A DNA stretch of 64,000 bases from Streptomyces sp. MUM 2J (GTDB lineage: Bacteria > Actinomycetota > Actinomycetes > Streptomycetales > Streptomycetaceae): positions 62,001-126,000 of the forward strand of contig NZ_JADWYM010000005.1 in the NCBI RefSeq assembly GCF_022414535.1, written 5' to 3'. Positions within the stretch are counted from its first letter, which is position 1. Every line of letters begins with the position of its first letter. This document shows positions 1-49,670 of this stretch, one piece after another. Below the pieces are notes generated by a model. The model saw only the letters and a list, made by a program, of their open reading frames with translations. It did not search any database and was not told the DNA's origin. The position numbers and the translations under genes were made by a program.

Positions 1-1244
1 ACCATCTGGGTGGTGGTGCCGGTACTGCCGCCGGTGGCGATGCCGGTGGTGGCCGGGCTGGGCGAGGGGGCGGGTGAGGGCGTGCCGGTGCCGCCGCCGT
101 CGCCCGCGCCGCCGTCGCCGCCCCCGCCGGTCGTCGGGCAGGTCTCCGCCGGGACCCAGGCGAACCTCACGTCGAACGCGGAGCCGGGGGCCAGGACCAG
201 TTCGGAAAGGCTGAGCGAGGGGTCGGGCAGACCGGGGGCGGCGTCGCCCGCGGTGTGCTGCACGACCGTGATCCTCGACGGGTCGGCGGCGCCCTTGGCG
301 AGGAGGGTCATGCTTCCCGCGCCGCCCACCACGCACTTGGTGTCCGAGACGTTGACGAGGTGGAACGTGCCGTACACGATGCCGGCGGAGTCCGGGCCGT
401 CGGCAGAGGCCTTGGCGCCGCCGAGCCGGTCGGCGGTGCACCGCGGGGGCTCGGCGGGCCCGGTGGCCGCCGGGCCGGGGTCCGGCGAGGCGGAGGCGCC
501 CGCACCGGCGCCCTTGCCCCGGCCGGTGTCCCTGCTGCCGCCCTGTTCCTCGCCTGTGACCGGGCCCGATACGCTGCCGGTCGTGTTCTCGTGACCGTCG
601 GAGGTCCTGCCCTCGCCGGTACCGCCCTGGACCTGCGAGCTGCTGCCGGCGACGGAGGGGGCGGCGTCGGTGCCGGTGGCCCTGGAGACGTGCAGCAGCG
701 CGGGCACGGCCGTCCCCAGGAACAGGGCCGTGGCGGCGAGGCCGACGGCCGCCTGGCGCTTGCGGGCCCGGCGTGCGGGGACCGCCCGCTGCAGGTGCTC
801 CAGGACGCCGTCGCGCGGCTCGATCTCCTGGACCGCGTGGTGCAGCATGCGGCGCAGTGCCAGCTCGTCCGAGTCGAGCCCGCCGGGGCTCTGGTCGTCC
901 AGGCCGTCGTTCACAGTTCCGTTCCCAGCGTGCAGGTGTTTCGGGTCGTGCGTGCGGGGCCGCCGCGCAGGCTCGGCTCCGAGGTCCGGCGCGGGGGCGG
1001 TGTGCGGCGTACGGTCCCGGCCCGGCCTGCCGCCCGGGTCCGCCCCGGGGTGCTCGGGCACCGGGCGGTCGCCGGTGGGCCGGTGGTCCGGGGACCGCCC
1101 GGGCCGGGGGCGGCCGTGCGCGTCGGGGGTGTCGGGGGCGCGGGGGGCTCCCGGAGCGTGCCGCGCGTCGTCCCCGTGCGCGTCCTTCCCGGCCTCCGCC
1201 CCGTACCCGCCCGGGCCCCCGTCGCCGCCCGTGCCGTGCGTCAT
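1..1244 (-). CDS. Membrane-anchored sigma-factor partner (C-terminus beyond window)
   Basis: The frame is open from an ATG at 1244 to the window edge (about 414 codons). Its ATG overlaps the TGA of the sigma gene (ATGA), so the two are probably translationally coupled. The first ~110 residues are Pro/Gly/Arg-rich and low complexity. A GTG at 914 (V-N-D-G-L-D-D) is a plausible later start. After a charged region (ELALRRMLHHAVQEIEPRDG) comes one membrane segment at about residues 162-182, then a Thr/Ser/Gly linker and a secreted domain with Cys (PPRCTADRLGG, DTKCVVGG) resembling DUF4232-type domains. Position and topology suggest the gene works with, or as anti-sigma to, the upstream sigma factor. 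That role is inferred; no zinc-binding anti-sigma motif was seen. Confidence 0.7.
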   Translation of the reverse strand, partial: MTHGTGGDGGPGGYGAEAGKDAHGDDARHAPGAPRAPDTPDAHGRPRPGRSPDHRPTGDRPVPEHPGADPGGRPGRDRTPHTAPAPDLGAEPARRPRTHDPKHLHAGNGTVNDGLDDQSPGGLDSDELALRRMLHHAVQEIEPRDGVLEHLQRAVPARRARKRQAAVGLAATALFLGTAVPALLHVSRATGTDAAPSVAGSSSQVQGGTGEGRTSDGHENTTGSVSGPVTGEEQGGSRDTGRGKGAGAGASASPDPGPAATGPAEPPRCTADRLGGAKASADGPDSAGIVYGTFHLVNVSDTKCVVGGAGSMTLLAKGAADPSRITVVQHTAGDAAPGLPDPSLSLSELVLAPGSAFDVRFAWVPAETCPTTGGGGDGGAGDGGGTGTPSPAPSPSPATTGIATGGSTGTTTQM

Positions 1245-45870: not shown

Positions 45871-45909
45871 CAGCGGCGTCACCGTGTTCAGGTCACGGTG
45901 ACGCCGCTG
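45871..45909. terminator. Perfect 16-bp hairpin between convergent genes
   Basis: CAGCGGCGTCACCGTG / TTCAGGT / CACGGTGACGCCGCTG. Lies between the PPOX gene (plus) and the Rieske-like gene (minus), so it can terminate both. Confidence 0.8.
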
Positions 45910-45953: not shown

Positions 45954-46292
45954 TCAGGCACTGCGGGGGGTGGCTGAGATGGTGCGCGGGGCGGTGGGGG
46001 CCGCCGGCTCGGCCAGCTGGTGCTCGCGCTGGTCGAGGTTAACGAAGATCATTCCGTACCGGATGGCACATCGCACTGGCTGCGGCGCCCCCCGAGGCCG
46101 CCGCAGACATCGGTACGCCCGCACGTCCCCGTCGTCGTCACGGGTGACGACGACCGGCTCGCCGAACACGGTCACCATCAGCGAGTCACCGCTGTGGGGG
46201 ATGGCGGTGACCAGGTCGATGAAGTGCCAGCCGGAGCGATAGGCGGTGGCCATTTCCCGTCGGAAGGATCGGTCGTCGGGTGGTGTGGTCAT
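45954..46292 (-). CDS. Rieske-like mini-protein lacking cluster ligands
   Basis: 112 aa from ATG 46292 (GTG 46307 also possible). SGWHFIDLVTAIPHSGDSLM, then VFGEPVVVTRDDDGDVRAYR, resembles the Rieske domain of ring-hydroxylating oxygenases. The CxH pair appears as C-L-R-R-P-R-G-A and the second CxxH block is missing; the text jumps to VRCAIRYGMIFVNLDQ. Thus it cannot hold a normal 2Fe-2S cluster. It follows the small secreted peptide gene by 5 nt, so both are one transcript, divergent from a TrmB/LuxR-like regulator. Confidence 0.65.
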   Translation of the reverse strand: MTTPPDDRSFRREMATAYRSGWHFIDLVTAIPHSGDSLMVTVFGEPVVVTRDDDGDVRAYRCLRRPRGAPQPVRCAIRYGMIFVNLDQREHQLAEPAAPTAPRTISATPRSA

Positions 46293-46297
46293 CACGA

Positions 46298-46483
46298 TCA
46301 GTCCCACGACGTGTCGTCGGTGTGATCGCCGCCGACACTCACCGCAACAGAACTCGTGTTCGCTCGCACGTCACTCGACTTGCTGGCGAGGCCGCTCACA
46401 GTGCCGAGAACCGCGACGGCGGAGAGAGCAGCGGCAAGTACCGAGCGAAGCATTCTCTTACGCATGGTCGGCTTCGTCCTCAC
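46298..46483 (-). CDS. 61-aa secreted peptide precursor
   Basis: From a GTG at 46483 (GAGGAG 8 nt upstream): basic start M-R-T-K-P-T-M-R-K-R, hydrophobic core LRSVLAAALSAVAVLGTVSG, and a possible cleavage after D-V-R-A giving a ~20-residue product N-T-S-S-V-A-V-S-V-G-G-D-H-T-D-D-T-S-W-D. No Cys, no lantibiotic-like core. Small size, export signal and divergence from a family of regulators present in three copies here suggest a signalling peptide. Function is inferred. Confidence 0.7.
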   Translation of the reverse strand: MRTKPTMRKRMLRSVLAAALSAVAVLGTVSGLASKSSDVRANTSSVAVSVGGDHTDDTSWD

Positions 46484-46620
46484 TCGATGGTCTCCTCTTC
46501 CCCCGTCCGGTAAGACGATGGCTCATTCAGGCACGTCATGGCCACACAATCGATGCATCATGTTCCTGCATGTTCAGGACCCTGGGGGGTGGAGAATTGG
46601 GGACAAAAGGTACGCAAGCT

Positions 46621-47607
46621 GTGCATCCCCACCCGATAACCGATCTGTGCGACGAAGGCAGTCGCCTCTACGCCCATGCCCTGCGCACCGGACGAATCGC
46701 GCGCGCCGACGTGGAGTCGGCCCCGTGTCTCATGGAGTACGCGCTGCTGCACCCGGACCCCGACGACGGTAACTGGTTGCGCCCCGTCCCCCCGTCCGTC
46801 GCGCTGGCCCAGCGCCTGCATCCGATCGAGCGGGAGATCACGGAGCGCAGGCGGCTCTCCATCGAACTGGCCGACGTTTTCGAGCCGTTCATGGCCGCGA
46901 GTGCCCAGGGCGCGGCGGCGACCCATGCCATCAGCGTGCTGGAGGGCAAGGACAGGATCAACGCGGCGCTCAACAACGCCGTGTCGGAGTCGCAGACGGA
47001 AGTGCTCACGGTACAGCCCGGCGGCCGGCGCCTGGAGGCCAACCTGATGAAGGGTCTGGAGCGCGACCGGCCGCTGATCGAGCGAGGGGTGCGGCTGCGC
47101 ACGCTCTACCAGCACACCGCGCGGCACAGCCCCGAGACGCTGGCCTACGTGGAGCAGATAGCCGACGGCAAGGTCGAGGTGCGCACCATCGACGAACTGG
47201 TCGAGCGCCTCATCATCTGCGACGAGACCGTCGCGTTCATCCCCACCCGCGACGACCGGCAAGTCGCCCTGGAACTGCGCCACCCGGGCCTGGTCCGCTA
47301 CCTGATCAAGGTGTTCGAGTTCATGTGGAGCCGCGCCGTCCCGCTGAACGCGGGCGCCCCCTACGAAACGGCCCCCGACGGCATCACGGACATCCAGCAC
47401 TCCATCGCCAAGCTCCTGGTGGAGGGGCACGTGGACGAGGCCATCGCCCGCCGCCTCGGCATGAACGTGCGCACCTGCCGCGCCCACATCGCCAAACTGG
47501 CGCAGGCCCTCGGCAGCGGCAGCCGGGCCCAACTCGGCTTCCTCATCGCCCAGTCCGGAATCCTGGACCAGGACCAGCGGGTGGCTCAGGGAGAGAGCGG
47601 CCCGTGA
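46621..47607 (+). CDS. LuxR-HTH / TrmB-like regulator, paralogue 1
   Basis: 328 aa if begun at GTG 46621; TTG 46597 or ATG 46570 are alternatives, none with an ideal ribosome site. Shared architecture of the three paralogues: N-terminal ITDLCDEGSRLYAHALRTGR, then ESAPCLMEYALLHPDPDD, a middle domain with TEVLTVQPGG, RLRTLYQHTARHS, TIDELVERLIICDETVAFIP, and a C-terminal HTH (KLLVEGHVDEAIARRLGMNV, RTCRAHIAKLAQALGSGSRA). The middle resembles TrmB/phospholipase-D-like sensor domains. Divergent from the peptide/Rieske-like pair. Confidence 0.85.
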   Translation: MHPHPITDLCDEGSRLYAHALRTGRIARADVESAPCLMEYALLHPDPDDGNWLRPVPPSVALAQRLHPIEREITERRRLSIELADVFEPFMAASAQGAAATHAISVLEGKDRINAALNNAVSESQTEVLTVQPGGRRLEANLMKGLERDRPLIERGVRLRTLYQHTARHSPETLAYVEQIADGKVEVRTIDELVERLIICDETVAFIPTRDDRQVALELRHPGLVRYLIKVFEFMWSRAVPLNAGAPYETAPDGITDIQHSIAKLLVEGHVDEAIARRLGMNVRTCRAHIAKLAQALGSGSRAQLGFLIAQSGILDQDQRVAQGESGP

Positions 47608-47692
47608 CGGCGAGGACGCACGGCCACGGCGTCGAGCCGCGCCACGCGCGGGAGCGGCCGGGGGTCCCCGGTCAGGAGGGAGGGTCCGGCGC

Positions 47693-48682
47693 ATGAGCCC
47701 GGCAGCGCATCAGGAGCACGGTGTGGAGGACCTGTGCGCCGCCGGTACCCGGCTGTACGAACGCGCCCTGCACGAGGGCCGGATCCCCGGGCCGGACGCC
47801 GAAGAGGCCCCCTGCCTGCTCGACTTCGGCCTGCTGCACCCGTCCGTCGAGGACCTGCACTGGCTGGAGCCGGTACCGCCGGCCGTCGCCCTCCACCGGC
47901 TCCTGCGCACGTCGGAGGCCCGGATCGCCCAGGAACGGAGGCGGGAGGCGCGGCTGGCCGAGGAGTTCGAGCGGCTCATGCGGCTCGACAGCCGCAGCGG
48001 GGCGATGGCGGACACCGCCGCGCTCCGGGTTCTCAGCGGCACGACCCGCATCAACGACGCCATCACCGAGGCGATGGACGAGGCCCGCCAGGAGGTCCTC
48101 TGCGTCCAGCCCCACACCCACTACAACACCGCGCGGGGTGCCAGGGCCCAGGTGGTGGCCATGTCCCGCGACCAGGCCCTGCTCGACCGGGGCGGCCGGA
48201 TCCGCACCCTGTACCAGCACACGCAGCGTCACATGCCCCTCGTGCACGCCCGCTACGAGCAGCTGCGCGGTGACGTCGAGGCCCGCACCCTGGACGAGGT
48301 CACCGACCGGCTCATCCTCGTCGACCGCACGGTCGCCTTCATCCCCGCCGGCGATGACGGCCTGCTCGCCCTGGAGGTCCGCCACCCCGCCCTGGTCTCC
48401 TACCTCGTCACCGCCTTCGACCGGCTGTGGCGCCTGGCCACCCCCATGCACCCGCAGGCCGTCCACCAGCCCACCCTCAACGGCGTCACCCCCCGCCAGC
48501 ACGCCATCGCGGCCCTGCTCGTCGAGGGGCACACCGACGCCGTCATCGCCGAGCGCCTGGGCATGAACGTCCGCACCGCCCGCGTCCACATCGCCAAGCT
48601 CGCCGCCACGCTCGGCAGCGACAGCCGCGCCCAACTCGGCTACCTCATCGCACGGTCGGGGATCCTTGATCAGGGATCGTGA
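47693..48682 (+). CDS. LuxR-HTH / TrmB-like regulator, paralogue 2
   Basis: 329 aa, with GGAGGGAGGG upstream of the ATG. Same layout as its neighbour: VEDLCAAGTRLYERALHEGR, EEAPCLLDFGLLHPSVED, QEVLCVQPHTHYNTARG, RIRTLYQHTQRHMP, TLDEVTDRLILVDRTVAFIP, HTH LLVEGHTDAVIAERLGMNVR, TARVHIAKLAATLGSDSRAQ. It lies 85 nt after paralogue 1. Its last 38 nt overlap paralogue 3, which runs the other way. Confidence 0.88.
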   Translation: MSPAAHQEHGVEDLCAAGTRLYERALHEGRIPGPDAEEAPCLLDFGLLHPSVEDLHWLEPVPPAVALHRLLRTSEARIAQERRREARLAEEFERLMRLDSRSGAMADTAALRVLSGTTRINDAITEAMDEARQEVLCVQPHTHYNTARGARAQVVAMSRDQALLDRGGRIRTLYQHTQRHMPLVHARYEQLRGDVEARTLDEVTDRLILVDRTVAFIPAGDDGLLALEVRHPALVSYLVTAFDRLWRLATPMHPQAVHQPTLNGVTPRQHAIAALLVEGHTDAVIAERLGMNVRTARVHIAKLAATLGSDSRAQLGYLIARSGILDQGS

Positions 48683-49670
48683 GACGGGTGGACGTGTGGA
48701 CGTCCAGGCCGGCCTGGGCGATGCGGACGCCCAGCTGGGTGCGGCTGGCCGCGCCCAGGGTCTCCGACAGGCGCGCGATGTGGGCCCGGCAGGTGCGGAC
48801 GCTGATGCCCAGGCGCTCGGCGATGACCGCGTCCTGGTGGCCCTCCGCGAGCAGGGCCGCGATGGACTTCTCGCGGTGCGAGATGCCCTCGATGCCGGTG
48901 TCCGGGATCGGTGCGGCGAGGGGGATCGCCAGGCGCCACAGGCGCTCGAAGACGGTCACCAGGTACGAGATCAGCGCGGGGTGCCGCAGCTCCAGCGCCA
49001 TCGTCCGGTCGCTGTTGGCCGGGATGAAGGCGACCGTGCGGTCGAAGAGGATGAGCCGGTCGGTGACCTCGTCCAGCGTGCGCGCCTCCACGGCGTCGCC
49101 CATCAGTTCCAGGTAGGTGAGCAGGCCCTGGCCGTGCCGGGCCACGTGGTTGTACAGGTCGCGCATCCGCACGCCCCGGCCGCGCAGGGCCAGCGCCCGG
49201 TGCAGTCCCTCGGTCAGCTCGTGCTCGCGGCGGATGCCGCCCGGCTGCACGGTGAGGACCTCCGTCGTGCAGGCCGCCGTCGCCTCGTCCATCGCCGCCT
49301 GGATGCGGGACAGGCCGTCCAGGACGCGGATCGCCGCCCCCTCCGCGGGGGCCATCGCCAGTTGCCGGCCCAGGCCCGCGTACCACTCGAACGCGGACAC
49401 CGCCGTCCCCACCCGCCGCTGGCTCGCGGTGACCTCGTCGTAGACACCGCGCAGGAGCCGGGTCATGACCTCCTGAGGCGCGGTGGGCACCAGGAAGTCC
49501 ATGTCGTCGGGGTCGGGATGCAGCAGGGCCAGCTCCAGCAGGCACGGCACCGTCTCCGCGTCCCGGCGCGACACCCGGCCCCGCCGTACGGCCCGGGAAT
49601 ACACGCGATCCCCGGCTTCGCACAGTCGGTCAGCACCGTGTGGATGCTCATCCGTCCCGTGCCCGGTCAT
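48645..49670 (-). CDS. LuxR-HTH / TrmB-like regulator, paralogue 3
   Basis: 341 aa from ATG 49670 (M-T-G-H-G-T-D-E-H-P-H-G-A-D-R-L-C). Motifs as above: CEAGDRVYSRAVRRGRV, TVPCLLELALLHPDPDD, TEVLTVQPGGIRREHEL, RMRDLYNHVARHG, TLDEVTDRLILFDRTVAFIP, HTH LLAEGHQDAVIAERLGISVR, TCRAHIARLSETLGAASRTQ. Convergent with paralogue 2 (38-nt overlap of the 3' ends). The open frame upstream to 49931 is not family sequence. Confidence 0.87.
   Translation of the reverse strand: MTGHGTDEHPHGADRLCEAGDRVYSRAVRRGRVSRRDAETVPCLLELALLHPDPDDMDFLVPTAPQEVMTRLLRGVYDEVTASQRRVGTAVSAFEWYAGLGRQLAMAPAEGAAIRVLDGLSRIQAAMDEATAACTTEVLTVQPGGIRREHELTEGLHRALALRGRGVRMRDLYNHVARHGQGLLTYLELMGDAVEARTLDEVTDRLILFDRTVAFIPANSDRTMALELRHPALISYLVTVFERLWRLAIPLAAPIPDTGIEGISHREKSIAALLAEGHQDAVIAERLGISVRTCRAHIARLSETLGAASRTQLGVRIAQAGLDVHTSTRLTIPDQGSPTVR

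Follow-up and report, generated by a model that had tools for sequence, protein, structure and literature searches.

A Streptomyces locus predicted to make and read a linear pentapeptide pheromone

Introduction

Can a Streptomyces cell make a gene-encoded signal of only five residues and read it with a regulator encoded next door? This question is raised by five genes at positions 45,954 to 49,670 of a 64,000-nucleotide stretch of DNA from Streptomyces sp. MUM 2J (contig NZ_JADWYM010000005.1), the whole of which we call the window. An earlier note on this DNA had proposed a sensing system in which a small exported peptide of 61 amino acids (aa) is read inside the cell by three neighboring regulators, here named R1, R2 and R3, in the company of a Rieske-like mini-protein. 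All five frames were confirmed. We consider it highly probable that a linear pentapeptide pheromone, specific to the species, is both produced and sensed by this locus, with R1 as the receptor, and the signaling idea is strongly supported by sequence comparison for R1 only of the three regulators.

Actinobacterial signals are typically small molecules made by enzymes, and oligopeptide signals are typical of Bacillota, according to one source (PMC10075063). We found no description of the peptide-regulator pairing in an open-licence PMC collection without bioRxiv, judged by title and the start of the abstract, a result that does not prove the pairing undescribed.

Results

A peptide gene and a regulator found together in all named loci

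Relatives of the mini-protein occur in 327 of 392 Streptomyces genomes (E ≤ 1e-10), and our comparisons center on 80 named loci, the best 80 of at least 419 confirmed mini-protein relatives. R1 is present in 80/80 of these loci, and when two scans are combined a peptide frame lies next to R1 or the mini-protein in all of them. Given these counts, the conservation of the locus goes far beyond chance. The 61-aa frame of the earlier note is therefore a conserved one, and peptide genes do adjoin the regulator homologues.

Selection keeps a short core constant within each precursor

The precursor begins with a basic segment followed by a hydrophobic stretch, as signal peptides do. In 78 of the 80 named relatives the frame opens with V/M-R-T-K, and the codon that starts the 61-aa form is GTG or ATG in the same frame; GTG 46483 is likely to be the start codon of the window peptide. 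The L041 and L092 precursors lack this start and must begin at a later ATG (residue 7 in the window). Relatives' precursors, which reach 225 aa as compared with 55 to 61 aa in the window, carry 1 to 18 tandem copies of a core of the form [D/N/E]-x2-x3-W-x5, such as DSTW in 18 copies (L043), DSSWG in three (L049), DVGW in four (L095) and DSHWP in two (L063). The window precursor has one intact copy, DTSWD, at its C-terminus and one apparently degenerate copy, NTSS. What had been described as a secreted peptide gene is indeed a conserved short frame with a signal-peptide-like N-terminus, but the multi-copy nature of its relatives goes beyond that description.

Among the 50 of 80 precursors with several copies, all copies agree at x2 and x3 in 45, compared with a mean of 6.6 and a maximum of 14 after shuffling. 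Of 152 precursors, 148 are distinct when judged on their last 40 residues, and 151, with 478 copies, entered the copy statistics; L041, whose frame was misread there, counts as lacking a core in the copy-concordance, copy-identity, distance-correlation and first residue tallies. Copy-to-copy identity within precursors is 1.00, 0.98, 0.93, 1.00 and 0.75 at D, x2, x3, W and x5, respectively, and 0.12 to 0.40 in the flanks, and 43 of the 151 precursors terminate exactly at x5. Furthermore, 194 of 319 pairs of copies with the same tetrapeptide differ in their nucleotides, which indicates that selection acts on the peptide. Taken together, the identity within precursors and the differing codons argue that selection keeps a short peptide constant in each precursor while it changes between species, and this peptide is most likely the pentapeptide, judging from these alignments.

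A single residue of R1 follows the second residue of the core

With the ClpB distance removed, species whose cores are further apart also have more distant R1 proteins (partial r 0.505), a value reached by 0 of 499 permutations in the 73 rows that have all genes. The partial correlation is greatest for the middle domain of R1 (0.519), followed by the N-terminal part (0.409) and the helix-turn-helix (HTH) domain (0.240). In the same rows the core shows no association with R3 (-0.07) or with ClpB (0.01).

Among 102 variable columns of R1 (commonest residue at most 80%), residue 128 alone tells rows with x2 = Ser from the others without exception. Naming the core residue first and the R1 residue second, the first rows give Ser-Met in 50/50, Thr-Val in 25 and Thr-Leu in 1 of 26, and Val-Val in 4/4; the window itself pairs DTSWD with V128. 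This rule was derived on the first rows and then tried on further loci. From 104 new loci read, 102 had both parts, and removal of 4 that repeat an R1 of the 80 loci or the window and of 5 internal repeats left 93 distinct loci, for which x2 was taken as the majority among a precursor's copies (mixed in 4 of the 93: L037, L130, L132 and L172). The rule held for Ser-Met in 15/15, Thr-Val in 9/9 and Val-Val in 4/4. These loci also revealed classes that had not been predicted, namely Ile-Val (17/17), Leu-Val (5), Leu-Ile (1) and Pro-Leu (41/41 aligned rows plus one unaligned row), the last of which counts little because it amounts to a single pair on the R1 tree.

Switches between Ser and another residue in the core coincide with switches between Met and another residue in R1 on both trees examined. 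When the R1 tree is built without columns 80, 128 and 213, the switches match in 9/9 pairs on supported branches (p 0.004; 15 pairs if all branches are counted), and on the ClpB tree of 78 rows they match in 11/11 (p 0.001; 21 pairs on all branches). The pairing is one of size, in that a small residue of the ligand goes with a large residue of the receptor and a branched ligand residue with a smaller receptor residue, as would be expected of a contact. Regulators from another genus (g43) that are only 30-33% identical to R1 repeat it, with Ser-Met in 2/2 and Thr-Leu in 3/3 (L205-L208, L213).

Two further positions were considered. At residue 213, the combination of Pro at x5 with Gln is found in 23/23 first rows and 9/9 new distinct loci, with 8/8 pairs on the ClpB tree. 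Residue 80 was rejected as a code for x1: Asn goes with Ala in 7/8 of the first 80 rows, but this represents one independent pair on the R1 tree.

R2 and R3 do not follow the adjacent peptide

R3 shows no association with the core, and its V128 and R213, at the two best specificity positions, are constant in 74/74 rows. R2 does not follow the adjacent core either. A role for R2 or R3 as a reader of the adjacent peptide is therefore unsupported, and the proposal that intracellular regulators read the peptide is supported for R1 only, with its residue-level match to the core. R2 and R3 are paralogues that may have other inputs. In the Pfam GerE model (cut-off 23.5 bits), R3 scores above the cut-off at 39.5 bits, and R1 (18) and R2 (23.0) score below it. 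Models of quorum regulators match R3 over its HTH only, at residues ~261-322.

R1 is predicted to join a TrmB/PLD-like domain to a LuxR-type HTH

The AlphaFold model of R1 (mean predicted local distance difference test score, pLDDT, 81.5; predicted template modeling score 0.53) leaves the relative placement of domains uncertain and comprises a winged-HTH-like part (residues 11-55), a long helix (58-94), a PLD/TrmB-like domain (~101-242) and a LuxR-type HTH (~252-315). Residue 128 lies on the strand formed by residues 127-132. The best Foldseek matches are TrmBL2 and TrmB, and TrmBL2 aligns to residues 3-243 with a large root mean square deviation between domains; the sequence match to TrmBL2 is weak (NCBIfam E 4.3e-4, far below cut-off). 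VIA-align matches residues ~101-243 to NucT at Z 17.4 (2.2 Å, 135 residues) and to the TrmB sugar-binding domain 2f5t at Z 15.2 (2.4 Å, 128 residues), and residues 252-315 to LuxR-type HTHs at Z 11-12, such as VqmA (11.7) and ChrA (11.9). Fold comparison at these Z-scores (15-17 and 11.9) bears out for R1 the domain composition that the earlier note had read from the letters.

No tetratricopeptide repeat (TPR) families were found in R1 by Pfam and NCBIfam scans at E ≤ 1, and the length of the model is taken up by the parts listed above. An autoinducer-binding domain is likewise absent from R1, whose residues 101-242 are PLD-like. As modeled, R1 is a protein of a TrmB/PLD-like domain plus a LuxR-type HTH, not an RRNPP/TPR receptor.

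A candidate operator in the divergent promoter

About 80 base pairs (bp) between R1 and the peptide gene are near-invariant in 81 rows and contain the inverted repeat TCCTG-N6-CAGGA. The 16-base element is exact in 76 of the 80 named loci and has one mismatch in the other 4, and none of 400 permuted-arm searches came closer than 3 mismatches. Its position and conservation fit a candidate operator of R1. Among the new distinct loci, the repeat is present at 0-2 mismatches in 47/51 whose x2 is not Pro and in 0/42 whose x2 is Pro, where the best match has 3-5 mismatches in 42/42. Because the repeat is absent from all 42, the x2 = Pro clade has another operator or none. In L029, L033-L035 and other x2 = Pro loci, the gene pair is kept and the conserved element is absent, such that operator and peptide have changed in the same clade. 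A further variant is seen in L152, where the arms of the candidate operator are kept and the altered center is itself palindromic (TCCTGTAGCTACAGGA). A search of the window's own genome with a 23-base form of the operator found no second site at up to 3 mismatches.

Similar pairs in a second genus and on plasmid and phage genomes

Within the class, 42 of the 148 genomes searched encode R1-type regulators (E ≤ 1e-15). At the loci of 60 distant paralogues or homologues, a small signal-peptide-like frame with [DNE]xxW was found in 24/60, as compared with 3/70 control pieces (3.9 kb in length, less than some of the test loci) and 4/60 reversed sequences. Shifted motifs gave 12/60 and 9/60, a Lys/Arg/Gln variant 13/60 and a Phe/Tyr variant 6/60. 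With a stricter motif the count was 19/60, against 3/70 control pieces, 2/60 reversed sequences, and 4/60 and 6/60 for shifted motifs. From the control and shifted-motif counts, the 24 motif-bearing loci must include chance matches.

Clear pairs are found in five genomes of one other genus, g43, with DSSWG in L205 and L207, two copies of DTSWG in L206, DTGWP in L208 and DTSWG in L213. The sequence A-x-A, the rule for signal-peptidase sites, often precedes the core in this genus (AHA-DTSWG in L206, AEA-DSSWG in L207, AEA-DTGWP in L208), and in these precursors it looks like such a site. Further Streptomyces pairs have DSAWG (L004), DTGWD at the C-terminus (L214), NTSWG (L229) and two copies of DPGWQ (L244). 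The scan found no motif peptide in L006-L008, L189, L191, L209-L211, L215, L216, L218-L227 and L230-L242, and the matches in L212, L228 and L243 (one each) and L217 (two) are doubtful or apparently lie inside other genes.

The window's own genome holds further relatives of R1, at 43% identity over residues 6-317 (L004) and 31% over 37-317 (L005), plus three weaker matches. The L004 gene (L004:1501-2768, equivalent to C34:9872-11139) is a fourth paralogue, divergent from a 56-aa peptide ending in YDSAWG, with neighbors that look plasmid- or phage-like by eye. The fifth paralogue (L005:1363-2358, plus strand, on C46) is near a 74-aa frame (346-570, minus strand) that ends in LDVTWGR and lies just upstream of a frame resembling an AfsR/SARP regulator by eye.

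Plasmid pairs include DSAWG (L246) and DDQWG (L248 and L255), and the scan found no motif peptide on plasmids L247, L249, L250 and L253. On the Streptomyces plasmids L248, L252, L254 and L255, a regulator stands with a small signal-peptide-like frame of core DD[QER]W, adjoining genes for AfsA-type, acyl carrier, phosphopantetheinyl transferase and HAD-IIIC proteins in what looks like an antibiotic-type cluster.

Phage Chymera (KU958700.1; L256:1855-3130) carries an R1-type gene 29, whose product is 29.6% identical to R1 over residues 113-312, divergent from gene 30, which encodes a 59-aa signal-peptide-like peptide with two copies of DPGWG in the context AQA-DPGWG, which again looks like a signal-peptidase site. 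Three IMG/VR relatives of this pair were found, one identical and two, at 88% and 68%, that keep both DPGWG copies; two viral scans with other regulators gave no match. In Chymera, L258 and L259 a Y-integrase is present and the pair lies next to an XRE-type DNA-binding gene, an arbitrium-like layout. The expectation that small exported-type peptides with a Trp near the C-terminus recur beside regulator homologues is thus borne out by the 80 named loci and by the pairs in the other genus, on plasmids and in phage.

Layout of the locus

The gene order of the named loci is R3 > < R2 (0-3 copies) < R1 | peptide > mini-protein >, and the features of the window are collected in Table 1. As the earlier note had stated, the first regulator is divergent from the unit of peptide and mini-protein, on the opposite strand and 137 bp away. 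The side-by-side arrangement of three regulators was also correct, but R3 lies on the opposite strand and faces R1 and R2, so the three do not form one operon; in the window the 3' ends of R3 and R2 overlap. Identity to R1 is 52% for R2 and 50% for R3. R2 occurs in 53 of the 80 loci and R3 in 75, and of the 5 loci without R3, 4 are near a contig end and L085 is not. In L110, R2 is in three pieces ~1.3-2.3 kb upstream of the mini-protein, apparently fragments of one broken gene. The mini-protein overlaps the peptide gene by 10 bases when read from its GTG, and begins 5 bases past the peptide stop when read from the ATG shared with its relatives. None of the five genes contains a TTA codon.

Table 1. 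Features of the locus, in window coordinates
Feature	Position	Strand	Remarks
Inverted repeat 3' of mini-protein, likely terminator	45871..45909		Read directly from the sequence
Rieske-like mini-protein	45954..46307	-	117 aa from GTG 46307; 112 aa from conserved ATG 46292
Pheromone precursor (predicted)	46298..46483	-	61 aa (start GTG 46483) or 55 aa (start ATG 46465); C-terminal core DTSWD
Intact core pentapeptide D-T-S-W-D, predicted signal	46301..46315	-	Ends at the stop codon; boundaries from 478 copies
Degenerate first core copy N-T-S-S, Trp lost	46349..46360	-	By-eye match to the first copy in L018 (ADTSWP) and L024 (ANTSWP)
Near-invariant block between R1 and peptide gene; inferred promoters and operator	46514..46594		81-row alignment, most columns >90%
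Inverted repeat TCCTG-N6-CAGGA, candidate operator	46564..46579		Conservation across loci
R1, predicted pentapeptide receptor/regulator, 328 aa	46621..47607	+	Covariation and predicted structure
R2, R1 paralogue	47693..48682	+	At least one copy in 53/80 named loci
R3, conserved R1 paralogue	48645..49670	-	75/80 named loci; GerE E 4.4e-10

The mini-protein has lost the histidine ligands of a Rieske cluster

Oxygenase alpha subunits have an N-terminal Rieske domain, and the mini-protein is similar to it. Its profile matches, to the NCBIfam model of GbcA (glycine-betaine monooxygenase; E 7.9e-8) and to Pfam Rieske (E 0.0062), are both below cut-off, and its AlphaFold model (pLDDT 72) has a best Foldseek match at E 3.5e-3 with probability 1.00. 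The cluster-ligand pattern CxH...CxxH is absent from all 35 aligned mini-protein rows, which instead read C-L-R and C-A-I/V-R. Both ligand histidines are thus lost, as the earlier note had recognized, but both cysteines, Cys67 and Cys80, are retained and invariant, and in this respect the protein is not stripped of its metal ligands. The median ratio of nonsynonymous to synonymous substitution rates (dN/dS) is 0.14 for the mini-protein, denoting purifying selection, as compared with 0.18 for R1 and 0.17 for R3.

Recurrence of the Rieske-like protein with peptide and regulator holds at this Streptomyces locus, but a tblastn search at E ≤ 1e-3 found no mini-protein relatives in 23 stretches (3.8-20 kb) with other candidate peptide-regulator pairs, which indicates that the mini-protein is not part of the minimal system. 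The same method did recover weak relatives alongside peptide and regulator in G047 and G050 (L188, L190). Near a second copy in G023 (L191, 72%) and a copy in G048 (L189, 40%), the scan found no adjacent peptide frame or R1.

A link to antibiotic production in S. coelicolor

In PMC2687793, clpB of S. coelicolor is SCO3661, and in PMC3282765, SCO3665 (327 aa) and SCO3666 (394 aa) are LuxR-family regulators. The gene order in the window is ClpB, one open reading frame, mini-protein, R1, R2 and R3, and the same genes are found in S. coelicoflavus (L091), where R2 has 327 aa, as does SCO3665. By count, SCO3664 would accordingly be the R1 gene. An insertion in SCO3664, termed a 'regulator', is among those reported to raise actinorhodin more than 50-fold in PMC6585502, and on this evidence R1, with or without its peptide, would brake antibiotic production. 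We also considered whether the peptide is the extracellular signal long known to be imported by BldK in S. coelicolor; this idea was dropped, and we claim nothing on it.

Discussion

How might such a system operate? The precursor would be exported, and signal peptidase and other proteases would release the pentapeptide. After re-import by an oligopeptide permease, the peptide would bind to R1 in a pocket of its PLD/TrmB-like domain, one that includes residue 128, altering the binding of DNA through the LuxR-type HTH, both at the operator in the divergent promoter (autoregulation) and at other genes. The signal would set the timing of antibiotic production, with SCO3664 restraining actinorhodin in S. 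coelicolor. Our guess is that the mini-protein is an accessory factor, perhaps one that handles the leader.

Several observations weigh against a pentapeptide pheromone read by R1. Export, re-import, binding and the role of the mini-protein are all inferred from sequence. One class of precursors has an x5 that differs between copies (DSTW-R/I/V/S), and there the mature form may be a tetrapeptide. The leader is weakly constrained, with a dN/dS of 0.55 over ungapped codons 1-34. The residue-128 rule fails outside the orthologues in L004 and L246, where DSAWG goes with Leu, and the phage copies beside DPGWG have Leu, Leu and Tyr at this position, with Tyr in L259. A link of residue 80 to x1 fails in the new distinct loci, where Ala80 accompanies 14/62 D cores and 14/29 E cores, and the link of residue 213 to x5 is clean only for Pro-Gln, with other classes mixed and 1 pair on the R1 tree. 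The permutation statistic ignores descent, and the mini-protein (0.18) and the R1 HTH also exceed all 499 permutations, so that part of the correlation must reflect linkage along the cassette. For S. coelicolor, only synteny and protein length link the genes to their SCO numbers, and the complementation in PMC6585502 that restored 12 of 16 tested regulator mutants is a count for the set, not for SCO3664 singly.

Linkage could in principle account for everything if peptide and R1 are exchanged between species as a neighboring cassette and have become correlated without any contact. Core distances that do not follow ClpB and the correlations of the mini-protein and the HTH are what such exchange would yield. 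However, one column of 102 holds the full association, with 9/9 switches on an R1 tree from which that column was left out, R3 shows no association at a distance of 2-3 kb, and the size pairing of Ser-Met and Thr/Val-Val/Leu is chemically sensible and recurs in regulators 30-33% identical. We consequently hold linkage alone to be very improbable. We think equally little of the idea that an unlinked receptor in the membrane senses the peptide from outside and that R1 responds to something made downstream. In its favor, import is a prediction, and R1 as modeled is a soluble, DNA-binding protein that would not meet the peptide outside the cell; against it, the residue-level covariation is with R1 itself.

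It is also improbable, if a little less so, that the peptides are secreted antimicrobials or effectors, akin to linear multi-copy bacteriocins, whose production R1 gauges or against which it serves self-protection. The signal-peptide-like N-terminus, the fast diversification between species, the presence of up to 18 copies and the antibiotic-type genes beside some plasmid pairs would all suit such products. Yet the core is just 4-5 residues and nearly always identical across the copies of a precursor, and the recurring partner is a DNA-binding regulator even in phage. Moreover, if R1 reads the product, this explanation shades into signaling.

The anatomy predicted here, that of a pheromone precursor beside its receptor R1, has its closest counterpart in the RRNPP systems, which include NprR and PlcR/PapR. 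Those of Bacillota such as Rap/Phr, Rgg/SHP, PrgX and AimR/AimP share with it a small exported propeptide encoded beside a cytosolic receptor of 250-500 aa (as outlined in PMC10075063), a short linear signal, and occurrence on chromosomes, plasmids and phages. R1, at 328 aa and with the peptide gene directly adjacent, falls within this description. The precursor, predicted to be exported, has 55-61 aa with a basic n-region and a hydrophobic stretch, and its relatives reach 225 aa, as against the 10-100 aa of the Sec-secreted RRNPP propeptides. In contrast, R1 has no TPR found, a TrmB/PLD-like and LuxR-type HTH architecture, a home in Actinomycetota, and precursors with up to 18 copies of a [DNE]xxWx core. 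Although its anatomy resembles that of an RRNPP system, the locus does not belong to that group, since the TPR feature was looked for and is lacking; its receptors are of an unrelated family, its phylum is a new one and its precursors are multi-copy.

Other systems resemble single parts. Archaeal TrmB and TrmBL2 share the winged-HTH-like N-terminus, the long helix and the PLD-like domain, but TrmB has a sugar-binding domain (2f5t), whereas R1 ends in a further, LuxR-type HTH and has a peptide gene as its partner; the covariation with the core argues that its ligand is a peptide rather than a sugar. LuxR-family proteins share the C-terminal HTH (R1 ~252-315) and differ in that the effector domain of R1 is PLD-like and its predicted signal a ribosomal peptide. 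Control of antibiotics by a diffusible signal is shared with Streptomyces gamma-butyrolactone signaling (AfsA/ArpA), in which the signal is made by an enzyme and the receptor is TetR-like, and some plasmid pairs adjoin AfsA-type genes. The secreted yeast alpha-factor precursor likewise holds tandem copies of one short pheromone, in an unrelated organism and with a membrane receptor. The mini-protein, finally, shares fold and sequence similarity with the N-terminal domain of Rieske oxygenase alpha subunits but has Arg for both His and 117 aa as opposed to ~350-450.

We lean, by a narrow margin, toward a broader proposal, which is rated lower because clear pairs are found in only one other genus. 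Actinobacteria would have their own family of intracellular peptide-pheromone receptors, built of a TrmB/PLD-like domain and a LuxR-type HTH, that read [D/N/E]-x-x-W-x tetra- or pentapeptides released from exported precursors with one or several copies. The R1-128 code would serve as a lineage address, the chromosomal copy would restrain antibiotics, plasmid copies would stand beside antibiotic-type clusters, and the DPGWG pair of a temperate phage would be an arbitrium-like switch.

If the prediction is true, the antibiotic-rich genus Streptomyces has a genetically encoded signal of five residues, inexpensive to synthesize and different from one species to another. The residue code relating R1-128 to x2 makes its specificity testable by single mutation, and the phage copy opens communication among Streptomyces phages to experiment. 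In S. coelicolor the gene at the syntenic place strongly restrains actinorhodin, and silent antibiotic clusters might therefore be activated by supplying the cognate peptide or keeping it away.

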